A stretch of 64,000 nucleotides of DNA, from the NCBI GenBank assembly GCA_022797935.1, contig JAAWLO010000001.1:1-64000 (forward strand), read 5' to 3'. The notes below the pieces were generated by a model that saw nothing but the letters and a program-made list of their open reading frames with translations, was not told the origin of the DNA and ran no database searches. This document shows positions 9,726 to 23,037 of the stretch, one piece after another (within the stretch, counting starts at the first letter, position 1; every line of letters starts with the position of its first letter). Origin of the DNA: Oscillibacter sp. (GTDB lineage: Bacteria; Bacillota; Clostridia; Oscillospirales; Oscillospiraceae). A program made the translations under genes and the position numbers.

Positions 9726-11321
<1,596 letters not shown>

Positions 11322-11413
11322 TGTATCATATCATCCTGAGGATTTCAAAGCATTTTTTGAAAATTTTCACAAAGTCAACCTTTTCTCTCCACAATATCCC
11401 AAGAGCACAGAAA

Positions 11414-11442
11414 AGCGAGGACGGGAAATTCCCGTCCTCGCT
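11414..11442 (-). terminator. Hairpin between BMP lipoprotein and ATPase genes (attenuator)
   Basis: 13-bp perfect stem agcgaggacggga-aat-tcccgtcctcgct; short T-rich tail on the minus strand. Confidence 0.65.
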
Positions 11443-11458
11443 GCTTTGAGGGGTTTTC

Positions 11459-12652
11459 TTACTTGATAGCGCCCAAATCGTTCAGCGTGATATTGGAAAC
11501 GGCGGGCATCTGGGAGATGTCGTCGGACACCGTGATCTTGCCATCGAACATATCCTTCACCAGGGCCTTATAGTCGTCCTGGGTGAAGCCTTCACCCCAC
11601 AGCGTGGTCTCCATAGGCAGAAGGACATAGTTGGCGTCCGGATCGTCGCCGGAAACCAGGCCCAGGGCCTCGGCCTTGCCGCCGTAGTTGGCGAAGTTGC
11701 CCGCGGCTACCTCGTCCAGCATGTGCTTAACGGTAGCGCCCAGACCCTTCATGGCGGAAGTCAGCGTCACACCCTCGCCGTAGCCAGCGTCCAGCGTGAA
11801 GCTCTGGTCCACGTCCACACCGATCACCTTGGTGCCAGGAACCTTGGCAGCCGCCTCACCAGCGGAAGTGCAGATACCGCCACCGCAGGCGAAGACCGCC
11901 TGGACGCCCAGGTTCTGATACCAGTTGTCCATATAGGCCGTGATATCGGGGTCACCATTGAACTGGTTGCCATAGACATACTCAACCGTAGCATCCACGC
12001 CCAGCTCACCGGCGGCCGCGTCCACGCCCTGAACAAAGCCATAGCCGAAGCGCTGCACGGCGGGAACGGCCATGCCGCCCAGGTAGCCCAGGTGGGTGTA
12101 GCCCAGCTTCACGGCGGCGACGCCGGCCATGTAGCCGCAGAGCTCTTCCTTGTAGACGGCGCAGTACACGTTGCTGGGAACGCTGCCGCCCACGTCGTCC
12201 TCGCTGACGTCCAGGGCGATGAAGCTGATTTCGGGATAGCTATCGGCCACCTGCACGATGGTCTCGCCAAAGGCGAAGCCGGGCATGACGATGACGTTGT
12301 AGTCCTCGTCGGCGGCCTTCTCCACCATGGCCACGCGCTCGGCGGTGGAGTTACCGGCGGGCTTGTAATACGTAAACGTCACGCCGTTGGCCTCACACCA
12401 GGCCTTGCTGGCCTCGTAGGTGGTCTGGTTGAAGGACTGGTCGGTGATGTCGCCGTAGTCGGTAATCATGGCGACGCGGATGTCCGCTCCGCCCTCGTCG
12501 GGGGTATTGGCGGGCTCTTGCTGCTGGCTGTCGCCGCTGCTGCCGCTGTCACCGGAGCTGCCGCTGTCACCGGAGCTGCCGGAATCCCCGCCGCAGGCGG
12601 CCAGGGACAGGACCATCGCCAATGTCAGCAGGAGCGCAAAAAACTTCTTCAT
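11459..12652 (-). CDS. BMP family ABC transporter substrate-binding lipoprotein
   Basis: MKKFFALLLTLAMVLSLAACGG lipobox, BMP-family VAMITDYGDITDQSFNQTTYEA; followed by GSSGD repeats. Confidence 0.92.
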   Translation of the reverse strand: MKKFFALLLTLAMVLSLAACGGDSGSSGDSGSSGDSGSSGDSQQQEPANTPDEGGADIRVAMITDYGDITDQSFNQTTYEASKAWCEANGVTFTYYKPAGNSTAERVAMVEKAADEDYNVIVMPGFAFGETIVQVADSYPEISFIALDVSEDDVGGSVPSNVYCAVYKEELCGYMAGVAAVKLGYTHLGYLGGMAVPAVQRFGYGFVQGVDAAAGELGVDATVEYVYGNQFNGDPDITAYMDNWYQNLGVQAVFACGGGICTSAGEAAAKVPGTKVIGVDVDQSFTLDAGYGEGVTLTSAMKGLGATVKHMLDEVAAGNFANYGGKAEALGLVSGDDPDANYVLLPMETTLWGEGFTQDDYKALVKDMFDGKITVSDDISQMPAVSNITLNDLGAIK

Positions 12653-17500: not shown

Positions 17501-17949
17501 AGCACGGCCTCCTCCCCGCGGCTAAACTCAGCCAAGGGATGCCGCATTTCGTAATGCTCCATGATAACCTGACGGGCCTCCCGGGTCTCCGGATGGATCA
17601 CCAGAGGGCATTTCAAGTTCACCGTACTGGCAGATACCGGGTTCTTCACGGCGCAAAGCACATAGAATCCCAGATCCCCCACCTCTTCTACGCCAAACTG
17701 CCGCAGCTCCGCCTTCGTCAATTCCGGCGCGTAATCCGGCTTCAGCGAGAAGGGGTCCAGCACCACGAAGGCCAGGGCCGGAGTCGCCACGCTTTGAAGA
17801 CACAGCATGCTCCCTCCGCCGCCTTCGAAAGGCAGAAGCAGGAAGGCATGCTCTTCATCAAAACCAAAGAGCCCCGCCGGGAAACGGATGACATCCTTTT
17901 CCTCGTACTCCACATTCCCGAAATACTTACTCTGTAATTCTGCCGTCAT
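17494..17949 (-). CDS. fliW: Flagellar assembly factor FliW
   Basis: DVIRFPAGLFGFDEEHAFLLLP, LSASTVNLKCPLVIHPETREARQVI-type FliW signature, next to csrA. Confidence 0.95.
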   Translation of the reverse strand: MTAELQSKYFGNVEYEEKDVIRFPAGLFGFDEEHAFLLLPFEGGGGSMLCLQSVATPALAFVVLDPFSLKPDYAPELTKAELRQFGVEEVGDLGFYVLCAVKNPVSASTVNLKCPLVIHPETREARQVIMEHYEMRHPLAEFSRGEEAVLC

Positions 17950-18554
17950 GCCTGCAAATCCACCGGTTCATAATCCGGGTCGGCGGAGGGGGGCACGTAC
18001 AGAGGCCCGCCCACATATTTGATAATCACTTCCGGCTTCTGTTTTACGGAAATTTCAATGTCGCCAGGGATGAATTCAAACTCCGTCTTGTTAATCCGCC
18101 AATCGAAATTCAATTTATCCATCTCGTAGCGGATATTCATCTCCGCCGGGTCCCACGTGATTTCCGGCCCCGCCTTGGGGATAAAATCTAATCCGGGCTG
18201 GCTGTACATCTCTGTGCTGATGGCCGTTTTGGCCAGCTGAGCCTGGACATCCTCGCCAATTTTTGCCTTCAAGTACAGCTCTCCTTCCTGCGCGAGAGCG
18301 GCGGTGGCCTGATAGGCAGCCTGCTGGCCCTTCTGAGCGCTCTGCTCAATGCTGGTGGTTGGGGAGGGAAGAATGGAATTACGCATCTCAAACGTATCCA
18401 CATTCAACTGAATCGGCCGGCTTTTGATGCTCAATCCGCCTTTGTCTCGAGAGACCTCCAGCTCTGCCGTTCCCTTGGTATACTGCAGCTGAGCGCGGGA
18501 GGTCCGCATTTCGATTTCAATGGGCACTCTGGTTATTTCAATCAACTGTTCCAT
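17946..18554 (-). CDS. YviE/DUF6470-like protein
   Basis: IEMRTSRAQLQYTKGTAELEVSRDKGGLSIKSRPIQLNVDTFEMRNSI; position between flgL and fliW as in Firmicutes. Confidence 0.8.
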   Translation of the reverse strand: MEQLIEITRVPIEIEMRTSRAQLQYTKGTAELEVSRDKGGLSIKSRPIQLNVDTFEMRNSILPSPTTSIEQSAQKGQQAAYQATAALAQEGELYLKAKIGEDVQAQLAKTAISTEMYSQPGLDFIPKAGPEITWDPAEMNIRYEMDKLNFDWRINKTEFEFIPGDIEISVKQKPEVIIKYVGGPLYVPPSADPDYEPVDLQA

Positions 18555-18601: not shown

Positions 18602-20032
18602 TTAGAAATTCATATAATCCATTAAGCTTTGAGAGAGAACGCTGTTGCCCACCTTCAGGGCCGTGTCGTAGCAATACTTGGCAAACATATACTCCGAAAT
18701 CGCGGCCGCCGGGTCTGCATCCTCCAGAGCCAGGAACTGCTGCTCCAGGGATTCTGCCGTATCCGTCAGCTGGTCCACGTTGTCGTGGAGGAAGCTGGCC
18801 TCCGTATCCAGCTCTGCGTAACGCTGCTTCACCTTGCTGGACACATCCTCGAACTGATGCGCCAGGACCATGAACTCATCCCGTTCCGCGTCACTGGCAA
18901 ACTTGCCGCTGTCCGCATCGCAGTTCTGAAGAATCTGGCCCATGCGGTAGGTAACCGAAACAATATTATTGGGTACCTCCGCTTTGACGGTGCGGCTGTT
19001 GCCGTCCGCATCGGTCAACGTAATTTCCTTCTCCGTGGTGCCATAGCCGCCCAGGTAATAGATTCCCTGGAGTGCCACGTTGGACACGCTGGAGCCCACG
19101 ACCTCGCCGTCGACCTCCTTGTAGCCCAGGCCAATGTCCACGTACTTTTTCTCATCCTGCGTGAAGTACCGCAGCTTCTCCTGGTCCGCCGGATCCATGG
19201 AATCCACCGGTACGCCGCGATAATAGAGGGTCATGTCGGCCCGCTTCTCATCGTTCGTGCCGGTGCCGTCGATTTTCAGGTACTTATAAGCGCTGTTCTC
19301 GTTGTAGGCGGGATTTTCATTGGGAACGATCTCCGCGTCCGCAGCATCTTCAACCGGTTCACCATTCACATTCAGGTAATACTCGTTCCCAGGGCCATTC
19401 GGCTGGGTCAAATCCGCGTCGGGATTGATCTTCGCCACCCGCTCCGCTTCGTCTATATTATTGGTGGGCACGCCGCCTACGCCCAGGTACTGGAACGCCG
19501 CCGCGTAATCCGGATTGGTGGGGTCCTTCGCCGCCAGGGCCGGGTCGATATAGTCCGGATTCGTCCGGGTCTCCCAGGTGAAGGGAACGTTCAGCGTGTC
19601 CGCGCCGGAGAAGATATAGTTCTCACCATAGCGGCCATTCATGATCTGGGCGATGTTCTTGGCCTTGGCCACCATGGACTGGCCCAGGGCGTTCCGGCCC
19701 GACGCCGTGGAATCGCTGATGCCCCGCAGCAGCGACGTGAAAGTATTGTCATTGCTCACCGTGTCGATGTCCAGAGAGATTTCCGCCGACGCTTTCCAGG
19801 CCACGTCATACTTCCGGGCCACGGACTCGTTGACCGTCAGCTGGCTGCTGGTGCGCAGATAGGACCGGCGCAGCTGGAAGCAGCGGGTAGCCAGGGCGGG
19901 GTCCTCGGCGTAGGTATTGAAATTCCGGCCGGTGAGGACCTTGTTCATGCTGTTGCTCATGTTGAAACCGGAACGGTTCAGGTTATAACGGTAACCCTTC
20001 AGCGTACCGATTGTGGTCATACGTGGTATCAT
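18602..20032 (-). CDS. flgL: Flagellar hook-associated protein FlgL, enlarged variable domain
   Basis: N-term MTTIGTLKGYRYNLNRSGFNMSNSMNKVLTGRNFNTYAEDPALATR; C-term LFxQSLMDYMNF-like flagellin-type end. Confidence 0.9.
   Translation of the reverse strand: MIPRMTTIGTLKGYRYNLNRSGFNMSNSMNKVLTGRNFNTYAEDPALATRCFQLRRSYLRTSSQLTVNESVARKYDVAWKASAEISLDIDTVSNDNTFTSLLRGISDSTASGRNALGQSMVAKAKNIAQIMNGRYGENYIFSGADTLNVPFTWETRTNPDYIDPALAAKDPTNPDYAAAFQYLGVGGVPTNNIDEAERVAKINPDADLTQPNGPGNEYYLNVNGEPVEDAADAEIVPNENPAYNENSAYKYLKIDGTGTNDEKRADMTLYYRGVPVDSMDPADQEKLRYFTQDEKKYVDIGLGYKEVDGEVVGSSVSNVALQGIYYLGGYGTTEKEITLTDADGNSRTVKAEVPNNIVSVTYRMGQILQNCDADSGKFASDAERDEFMVLAHQFEDVSSKVKQRYAELDTEASFLHDNVDQLTDTAESLEQQFLALEDADPAAAISEYMFAKYCYDTALKVGNSVLSQSLMDYMNF
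19226..19561 (-). repeat. Degenerate NP..YL..DGxP protein repeats in FlgL
   Basis: NPDYAAAFQYLGVGGVPTNNIDEA / NPDADLTQPNGPGNEYYLNVNGEPVEDAADA / NPAYNENSAYKYLKIDGTGTNDEKRA. Confidence 0.7.
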
Positions 20033-20050
20033 GAAAGCTCCTCCTTAAAA

Positions 20051-22525
20051 TCAGGTGGTCAGACCGGTGTTGTTGATAAGCTTGTCAAGGACACTGTCCA
20101 GGGTCGTCATCAGCCGGCAGGCCGCGTTGTAGGATTTCGCGTACATCATCAGATTCATGGCCTCGTCGTTGAAGTCCACGGAGGAAACGGAATCCCGGCT
20201 CGTGTCAATGGAGAGGGTATTTTCGTAGAAGGTATCCAGCATGGTGCTGGAGTACTTCTGGTCCGCACCCAGGATGGCGCCCATCTTGTTCCAGAATTCC
20301 GTAAAGCTGCCGGTGAACATCACGTCCCCGCTGGCGCCTTCCGCCCCGGGAACATCGCTGGGCCGGTAGTCCATCTTCTCGTCAATCAGGCCCTGCATGT
20401 GGAGGATGTTCTCGCTGTCGCCGGAGGCGGGCTCCGTGGAGCCCGGCGGGCAAGTAAAGCTTCGAACTACCAGAGGGTTCACAGACCAGTCAGCGGAGAT
20501 ATCGATATTGGAAGCGGTGATGTTGGTGGGGTCGTTGCTGTTGTTGCTGTTGCTGAAGAGCACGCCGCCATCGAAAATGCCCTTTGCGTTGGCCTTCAGA
20601 GCGTCACCCTCCAAAGTGGGGTTGCCATCGGCATCGTATTTCTGCCCCTTCAGGTAGGCGTCAATAATTTCCTGGCTGTTGTCCTTGTCCGGGTCGTAAT
20701 GGAGGCCGGTCTCCTCCTGAAGCCGCCGGACGATTTCCGGAGGCTGGTCTTTCAGGGTAGTGTTCTTGTTCAGCACGAGCGTATCCGTCGTATCGGTTCC
20801 ATCTGCCGCCATACCCGTCACGGTCACCGGCACACCGATTTCCTCGCCCTTCTCATTGACGCCGGTGGTAATATAATTTCCATCCGGGTCCATCCGGAAG
20901 CCCTGGTTGGCCGCGTTGAAGGCGTTGGCCACCTGATTGGCCAGGGCGTCCAGCATCTTCTGATAGTAGGGGATGCCCCGCTTGCTGCCGGCGTTCTCGT
21001 CGGCGTTGCGCAGCGCTCCGGTGGCCAAGTCGCCGTTGATTACTTCCAGGTCGGTGAACTCACCGGCCTCGGTCAGCAGCTCCCGCTCGGCCTGGAGACC
21101 GCCGTGGAGGTCGTTGTCGTCCAGCTCCACCGGCTTGGAGGCTGTCTGAATGTATTCCTGCTTGAAATATTTCCCCGCTTTATTCATGCGGTAAACCGTA
21201 ATCAGGATATCCTTGTTGTCCTGCTTCTCCGCCACGGAGCCGCCGTTCTTGATGGCCTTCTTCGCCGCCTCAATCTCGGCAGGATCGGTAATCTCGGTCT
21301 CCGCGCCCAGCTCCTCGGTGGTGTAATGCAGCCGGCCCGTCTTGTTCCGCATCTCGGATACCGTCAGGTTGAAGTTGGGGTTGTCGACCATCTTCGCTTT
21401 CGTGGGGTCGTTGGTCGGGTTGCCCTCTCCATCCAGATAGGGCATGTAGGCGGGGTTGGCCTTGGGTTCCTCGGCGGCATTGTTCACATCCGTGGGCTTC
21501 CCGTCTTTATCCAGATACTGGGTAGCCGGGTCCTTCCCATCCCAGTCCGGATTTTCTACCTTCACCATCTCCGCCTGATCTGCGGTCATCACGGGGTCGC
21601 CGTTGGCATCCAGATACGGCCAGGTATCCTTGTTGTCCGGGTCCAGCTTGGCCGCCGGATTCTCCTGGGGCACCTGCTCCAGAATCAGCTGGGCGGCATA
21701 GATACCGTCAATCAGCATGGTGGAATCCGTCTCGACGCTGCCGTCGGGGTTGGCGTTGCCCAAGCGGATGGTCAGCTTCTCAATCTCCACGCCGTAGCTG
21801 AACTCCTCCATGCTGTACTGCACGTCGATATCCACCAGGCTGGAGAGCTTGTCAATCAGCAGATTCCGCTTGTCCCGCAGCTCCAGGGCGGGGTCGCCGT
21901 GGATGTCCGCCTTGCGGATTTCCGCATTCAGCTCCCGGATGCTGACAAGGTAGTCGTTCACCGTCGCCACGTCCTGCTTGAAGGCCGTGAGGGTATTCTT
22001 ATAGGTCTGATTGAGCTGGTTGGCGTAGCTCTTGAACTTCTTCACCAGTTCTCTGGCCGCCGCCCGGACCTGGTTGTCGTACTCCTCGTGGCCGGTCTGC
22101 TCCACCAGCTGTTCCAGGGCGTCGTGGAGCTCGCTGAAATCCGCGCCGAGAAGACCGAAGTCTTCGCCCTCGGTCTGAACGCCTTTGCCCGTCTCGTCCA
22201 GGACCTGGGCAACGCTGTTCAGGCCGCCCAGCATGGCGTCCATATAGCCCATATTGGCGTTCTCCGTGCGGAAGCGGATATCCAGATAGGGGTTTCGAAT
22301 CTGAGAAATGCCATTTACCAGAACACCCTGACCTACCCGGACGTCATTCTGGGCATAATACCGGTCTGCACCGGAACAGTAGAGGCTCGACTGATCCACC
22401 CGCTGGCGGGTGTAGCCCTCGGTATTGATGTTGGAAATGTTGTTGCCGGTGACGCCCAGGCCGGTCTGCGCGGCATAGATGGCCAGCCGGGCCTGGGTAA
22501 ACGCACCAAAGGTTCCAATACTCAT
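20051..22525 (-). CDS. flgK: Flagellar hook-associated protein FlgK, enlarged (824 aa)
   Basis: GAFTQARLAIYAAQTGLGVTGNNISNINTEGYTRQRV; C-term DSVSSVDFNDEAMNLMMYAKSYNAACRLMTTLDSVLDKLINNTGLT. Confidence 0.95.
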   Translation of the reverse strand: MSIGTFGAFTQARLAIYAAQTGLGVTGNNISNINTEGYTRQRVDQSSLYCSGADRYYAQNDVRVGQGVLVNGISQIRNPYLDIRFRTENANMGYMDAMLGGLNSVAQVLDETGKGVQTEGEDFGLLGADFSELHDALEQLVEQTGHEEYDNQVRAAARELVKKFKSYANQLNQTYKNTLTAFKQDVATVNDYLVSIRELNAEIRKADIHGDPALELRDKRNLLIDKLSSLVDIDVQYSMEEFSYGVEIEKLTIRLGNANPDGSVETDSTMLIDGIYAAQLILEQVPQENPAAKLDPDNKDTWPYLDANGDPVMTADQAEMVKVENPDWDGKDPATQYLDKDGKPTDVNNAAEEPKANPAYMPYLDGEGNPTNDPTKAKMVDNPNFNLTVSEMRNKTGRLHYTTEELGAETEITDPAEIEAAKKAIKNGGSVAEKQDNKDILITVYRMNKAGKYFKQEYIQTASKPVELDDNDLHGGLQAERELLTEAGEFTDLEVINGDLATGALRNADENAGSKRGIPYYQKMLDALANQVANAFNAANQGFRMDPDGNYITTGVNEKGEEIGVPVTVTGMAADGTDTTDTLVLNKNTTLKDQPPEIVRRLQEETGLHYDPDKDNSQEIIDAYLKGQKYDADGNPTLEGDALKANAKGIFDGGVLFSNSNNSNDPTNITASNIDISADWSVNPLVVRSFTCPPGSTEPASGDSENILHMQGLIDEKMDYRPSDVPGAEGASGDVMFTGSFTEFWNKMGAILGADQKYSSTMLDTFYENTLSIDTSRDSVSSVDFNDEAMNLMMYAKSYNAACRLMTTLDSVLDKLINNTGLTT
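21368..21661 (-). repeat. Degenerate NP..YL..DGxP protein repeats in FlgK
   Basis: NPAAKLDPDNKDTWPYLDANGDPVMTADQAEM / NPDWDGKDPATQYLDKDGKPTDVNNAAEE / NPAYMPYLDGEGNPTNDPTKAKM. Confidence 0.75.
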
Positions 22526-22557
22526 ATCATTAACTCCTTTGTCTCACGAAGAAGAAT

Positions 22558-23037
22558 TCAAGCGCGGAAATCTGTTTTCATCGACGGCGGCGGACCACTT
22601 TGCGCAGGCTTGCCGTAGCCGGGGCCCATTTCCGGCGGCGGGCCGCCCATTTGGGCCACCATAGCGTCCACCTCCCGCATGTTCTGCTCCAGGAAGGCCC
22701 GGGCCTTCTTGGATTTCTGCCGGTAGGTCTGGTAGCTTCCCTGCAGAACCGCCACAGCCTCCTCCACCGGCTTGCGCCACTGGGCGGGAATCCGGCTGGG
22801 GGTTTGGGAGAGGGAAAGGCCCTCCATTCCCAACTGGGACAGCAGACGGTCCCGGGTCTGCTCCAGTCCGCGGAAGGTGAGGGCCAGGGCCTGCTCCTGG
22901 TTCATCAGTTCATTCAACGTCTGGAGGTCATCGGTCTTGGCGGCCTCCAGCTGTCTGTCCGCCAAGGCGCCCAATTCCTCCACACTGCGGGACATAGACG
23001 CCAGGAAGGAGAGGTAGGACTGTATCAATTCTTCCAT
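22558..23037 (-). CDS. flgN: FlgN-type flagellar export chaperone
   Basis: LGALADRQLEAAKTDDLQTLNELMNQEQALALTFRGLEQTRDRLLSQLG; located between flgM and flgK. Confidence 0.85.
   Translation of the reverse strand: MEELIQSYLSFLASMSRSVEELGALADRQLEAAKTDDLQTLNELMNQEQALALTFRGLEQTRDRLLSQLGMEGLSLSQTPSRIPAQWRKPVEEAVAVLQGSYQTYRQKSKKARAFLEQNMREVDAMVAQMGGPPPEMGPGYGKPAQSGPPPSMKTDFRA

Follow-up and report, generated by a model that had tools for sequence, protein, structure and literature searches.

A homologous tandem module in the adjacent hook-filament junction proteins FlgK and FlgL of Oscillibacter

The window analysed in this study, a 64,000-nucleotide stretch of Oscillibacter sp. DNA, carries on its minus strand the adjacent genes flgK and flgL, which are predicted to encode the two hook-filament junction proteins. 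In each protein, three copies of a unit of 25-46 amino acids (aa) with the pattern NPxY(D)...YLxx(D/N)Gx(P/G)TNDxxxAxxVP were found, and comparison of the sequences showed that the FlgK and FlgL units are homologous and represent one protein module.

Results

The two genes, their units and the conserved stretches that border the arrays are as follows, with expectation values (E) from profile searches.

20051..22525, minus strand: flgK, 824 aa, first hook-filament junction protein
21557..21664, minus strand: FlgK unit 1, ENPAAKLDPDNKDTWPYLDANGDPVMTADQAEMVKV (aa 288-323), joint profile E 5e-13
21458..21556, minus strand: FlgK unit 2, ENPDWDGKDPATQYLDKDGKPTDVNNAAEEPKA (aa 324-356), E 3.9e-10 in the search of its own genome
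21383..21457, minus strand: FlgK unit 3, NPAYMPYLDGEGNPTNDPTKAKMVD (aa 357-381), E 1.7e-9 in the search of its own genome
21329..21382, minus strand: conserved FlgK stretch NPNFNLTVSEMRNKTGRL at the end of the array, from sequence comparison
18602..20032, minus strand: flgL, 476 aa, second hook-filament junction protein, directly after flgK
19565..19588, minus strand: conserved FlgL stretch VPFTWETR before the array, from sequence
19427..19564, minus strand: FlgL unit 1, TNPDYIDPALAAKDPTNPDYAAAFQYLGVGGVPTNNIDEAERVAKI (aa 157-202), E 3.7e-11
19316..19426, minus strand: FlgL unit 2, NPDADLTQPNGPGNEYYLNVNGEPVEDAADAEIVPNE (aa 203-239), divergent, joint profile E 8e-3, with the shared predicted secondary structure
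19226..19315, minus strand: FlgL unit 3, NPAYNENSAYKYLKIDGTGTNDEKRADMTL (aa 240-269), E 1.8e-12
19196..19228, minus strand: conserved FlgL stretch LYYRGVPVDSM after the array, from sequence

Homology of the FlgK and FlgL units

A profile derived exclusively from FlgK units, with seeds picked by eye, matched 21 of 24 long FlgLs, including the FlgL of this window at E 1.6e-13, and none of 1200 shuffled FlgL inserts fell below E 0.09. Conversely, a FlgL-only profile matched 19 of 22 long FlgKs (best E 8.4e-23) and 13 of 18 outgroup FlgKs, and the best of 1100 shuffles was no better than 0.15. Direct alignment of the two profiles with hhalign gave a probability of 97.8% and E 8.6e-13, with reversed or column-shuffled profiles reaching at most 1%. 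Moreover, a seed-free search with this single FlgL sequence recovered FlgKs from seven further species (E 2.9e-9 to 6.9e-5), the aligned region being the insert. FlgL unit 2 was a weak match, at E 0.27 with the FlgK-only profile.

These results bear out the initial annotation, which had described the same degenerate repeat in both proteins at about three units each; all six stretches that it quoted are present, with coordinates right within a few bases, and the first FlgL unit truly starts earlier, at TNPDYIDPALAAKDPT. The lack of significant similarity between the two sets of units, named there as the outcome that would speak against a common repeat, was not observed. Independent, convergent origins of the two arrays on a common hairpin motif might be suspected from the shortness of the motif and from the different repeats that FlgLs of other genera have of their own. 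The strength of the profile agreement and the absence of the motif from other proteins in the same genomes make convergence highly improbable.

Occurrence of the unit

In its own genome (2.69 Mb in 158 contigs, 84% completeness) the unit was matched in flgK and flgL only. The initial annotation had proposed searching for the unit in other flagellar or surface proteins; across 86 Oscillibacter genomes, every match at E <=1e-4 fell in flgK or flgL, and the one match on a second contig was the remaining part of a split flgK. Among 301 genomes of the family, 15 had matches, and outside this genome these lay in FlgK only. FlgKs of sister genera often carry one unit at a shared site, which in this window is occupied by FlgK unit 3, also the class closest to the outgroup single units, and their FlgLs carry none. 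In samples of the order and the phylum, the clear matches beyond the family were two FlgKs from another family of the order; two non-FlgK matches among 394 genomes of the order (16-19 residues in unrelated frames, E about 7e-4) were taken as chance.

None of 30 units matched Pfam at E 10, the best unit match among solved structures was a 12-residue stretch at E 0.69, a PHROGs search gave no match, and a search of the available literature found no paper on these FlgK and FlgL repeats. A D2 domain shared through descent did not fit the distribution, since sister-genus FlgLs have a short loop here or other repeats elsewhere; in unit-free FlgLs a loop such as GEDGE bridges VPFTWETR and LLYRGV.

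Repeats of other kinds were also seen. The sister-genus FlgLs L092-L119 (for example L119, L115 and L110) contain, at another site after YRGVPVDAA, a tandem repeat that differs from the present unit and spans about 50 aa, PNVLKDxxG..VDxxG..DPAGxxYL......TISKADYxxA. The FlgK arrays of L049 and L080 contain tandem repeats of about 14 aa of the DAAGKGTEWPYT type.

Predicted fold and conserved positions

In AlphaFold models of FlgK and FlgL, built with alignments of 36 and 33 sequences, the arrays had a predicted local distance difference test (pLDDT) score of about 84-95 in both proteins; the FlgK model was poor in parts beyond the array, and its residues 1-77 were under 50. The units of both proteins shared the DSSP pattern EE-----EE--HHH--EEE-E, in which each unit is predicted to form a beta-hairpin running from YL through the D/N-G turn to T, followed by one helical turn at xxxA and a brief strand at VP, with NPxY(D) linkers between units. 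A generic low-complexity linker, the other alternative named in the initial annotation, is thus not borne out, as the units are predicted to be structured in both proteins.

The conserved positions of the unit are N-P, Y, L, G, T, A and V, and these residues make turns and cores rather than a metal site. The initial annotation had suggested binding of Ca2+ or another ligand through the D/N-G turn, and the units are indeed rich in D and N around it. However, column frequencies put D at the turn position in 56% of units and N in 19%. No other acidic position near the turn exceeds about 55%; the linker D alone attains 80%, counted over the units in which its column is occupied. Conserved acidic ligands of the kind seen in EF-hand or dockerin repeats were not found; together with the lack of any Pfam or substantial structural match, this makes ligand binding through the turn a very doubtful proposal.

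The arrays could also be nearly neutral filler, that is, insertion-tolerant loops lengthened by slippage and recombination and devoid of function. Copy number and length vary freely, other genera have other FlgL repeats, and a tolerant loop requires no selection. Nevertheless, the conservation of Y, G, T, A and N across very diverged units and the high confidence with which the units are predicted to fold speak against filler, which we consider unlikely.

Direction and timing of spread

A midpoint-rooted tree was inferred from the conserved ends of FlgK and FlgL, in which 30 of 38 inner branches were well supported. FlgL units occurred in 20 of the 21 members of one clade and in none of the 21 others, and 12 of the 21 outside this clade had one FlgK unit. 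Because all unit-bearing FlgLs sit in one clade, a single passage of the unit from FlgK to FlgL is most likely, and the simplest course would be one FlgK copy, then multiplication, and one transfer to FlgL.

Within genomes, the DNA identity of FlgK and FlgL units was 0.500 compared with 0.502 under permutation (p 0.66). The units of one genome are therefore no more alike than units across genomes, so exchange between FlgK and FlgL is not recent, and ongoing gene conversion between the two genes was rejected. Of the proposal in the initial annotation that one module had been propagated between two hook-associated proteins, the common module stands; the spread looks like one old event at the root of a single clade rather than an ongoing process. 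In another genus (L156 of G170), the FlgK array has multiplied to five units, its FlgL has none, and this FlgL carries a third kind of repeat, W.DYY....TDE.

Variation between close relatives

Across flgK and flgL, two species representatives, L077 and L078, share about 98% identity, which drops to 33-48% in the inner FlgL units, the sole strong difference within the two genes. The last FlgL unit is nearly identical again, and the right edge of the divergence lies at its start. A second pair, two flgL copies in one metagenome-assembled genome (L061 and L062; G012:C11 and C80), had flanks 97-100% identical over most of their length and divergent inner units; the copies may come from two strains binned together or from two separate loci. 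A divergent middle in a near-identical background, as in a recombining hypervariable region, was thus found in both pairs. The reading frame and the pattern of the unit are preserved, which favours replacement of a working part. Elsewhere in these loci, L077 and L078 showed further divergent stretches at 9800-10400, beside a LexA-like gene, and at 11400-12000.

These pairs and the distribution of the unit also bear on a structural clamp, in which FlgK and FlgL units would pack together and stiffen the junction, so that both proteins need the module. The presence of the unit in both proteins of one clade would agree with a clamp. Over 20 genomes, however, FlgK and FlgL lengths did not covary (rho -0.02), which argues against obligate pairing; moreover, inner FlgL units differ while FlgK is unchanged, and in many species FlgK is the only carrier of the unit. 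A clamp is accordingly distinctly unlikely. In a pattern-based subset (n=11), FlgK length had correlated with the FlgL insert (rho 0.67, p 0.024, among three comparisons made), and this correlation was lost with all rows.

Locus and naming of the genes

The gene order on the minus strand is flgM, flgN, flgK, flgL, a DUF6470 gene, fliW and csrA, where fliW and csrA were named by sequence reading alone. FlgK scored 205.3 bits against TIGR02492 (cut-off 170.75) and 81.8 bits against PF22638 FlgK_D1 (cut-off 28.6), and its AlphaFold model resembled solved FlgKs in Foldseek (best E 4.6e-13). The product of flgL matched TIGR02550 over residues 16-474 at E 1e-13, at 51.4 bits, below the curated cut-off of 127.2. 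Its best Foldseek matches were Salmonella hook-filament junction chains of roughly 312 residues, and its place fits, with flgK directly before it, flgN and flgM upstream and the DUF6470 gene downstream. From predicted fold and gene place it is taken to be FlgL, and the name was kept despite the low score because the insert and divergence depress it.

The DUF6470 gene (17946-18554, minus strand, E 3.8e-48) lies between flgL and fliW and is of unknown function. An open frame of 1329 aa (18629-22618, plus strand) runs antisense to flgL and flgK and is probably a by-product of codon usage.

Discussion

In the present study, the evidence favours, with reasonable though not strong confidence, the view that the arrays decorate the outside of the hook-filament junction, can fold and undergo recombination, and are formed by one module that originated in FlgK and was copied once into FlgL. 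The unit would have begun as a single FlgK copy and would have been copied once into the adjacent flgL in one Oscillibacter lineage, after which the arrays would multiply and diverge by unequal crossing-over and by import of allelic arrays from other strains. In both junction proteins the module appears to interrupt the outer part at a point flanked by conserved strands. Previous studies have illustrated that in solved junctions the FlgK and FlgL D2 domains point outward (PMC12221982, PMC6155364); the units would fall in a region that is expected to be exposed in either protein, in line with the surface exposure suggested by the initial annotation. More tentatively, the arrays may stand outside the junction as a tolerant, variable outer layer, and, most tentatively of all, gut antibodies or flagellum-binding phages might be the agents of a selection that keeps this variability, as has been proposed for the hypervariable part of flagellin.

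Several observations weigh against this account. Short as they are, the FlgK and FlgL units have also diverged, to a mean identity of about 36%, and their structural agreement is at the level of secondary structure and not of superposed folds. For the same reason, the direction from FlgK to FlgL is drawn from distribution and not from a tree of units; the FlgL units are not clearly nearest the outgroup FlgK unit, and loss is also in play because the tree was midpoint rooted and the unit was not found in all outgroup FlgKs. Array replacement was seen in two pairs only, one of which is possibly two strains in one metagenome-assembled genome; no donor array was found in the genus, and no silent copies were found in the genome itself or the genus. 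L077 and L078 also differ in stretches downstream of csrA, so difference alone is no proof of selection.

The arrays resemble several known systems in part. The outer domain described in PMC6155364 is likewise an extra domain on a conserved helical core, similar in FlgL and FlgK and exposed in the assembly model; there, however, it is a single beta-sandwich, whereas the arrays are short units in tandem, in an insert specific to the lineage and absent from sister-genus FlgLs. The hypervariable part of flagellin, which is swapped between strains through recombination (PMC7018530), shares the conserved ends, the divergent exposed middle and the replacement between close relatives; unlike it, the arrays lie in minor junction proteins and consist of repeated units common to two proteins. 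The other FlgL repeats of Oscillospiraceae (PNVLKD..VD..G..DPAG..YL......TISKADY and W.DYY types) likewise repeat in tandem within the variable region of FlgL, with a different sequence and a different site (after YRGVPVDAA or YRGVNV). Choline-binding and cell-wall-binding repeats have a YL..DG hairpin-like motif in tandem, as do the units described here, which in contrast have no Pfam match and no Trp-rich pattern. On the best reading, the arrays are a variant of the already known variable outer domains of flagellar proteins.

It is possible, although we put this forward only tentatively, that the Oscillibacter junction is an antigen-like variable region and, next to flagellin, a second place at which the flagellum varies, with a module that was passed between neighbours and is now swapped array by array between strains. 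Exposed, strain-variable parts of the flagellum are usually sought in flagellin. A shared module that differs wholesale between near-identical loci suggests that in this common gut genus the junction itself may face the same pressure, and it offers an example in which the movement of a small folded unit between adjacent genes can be followed.
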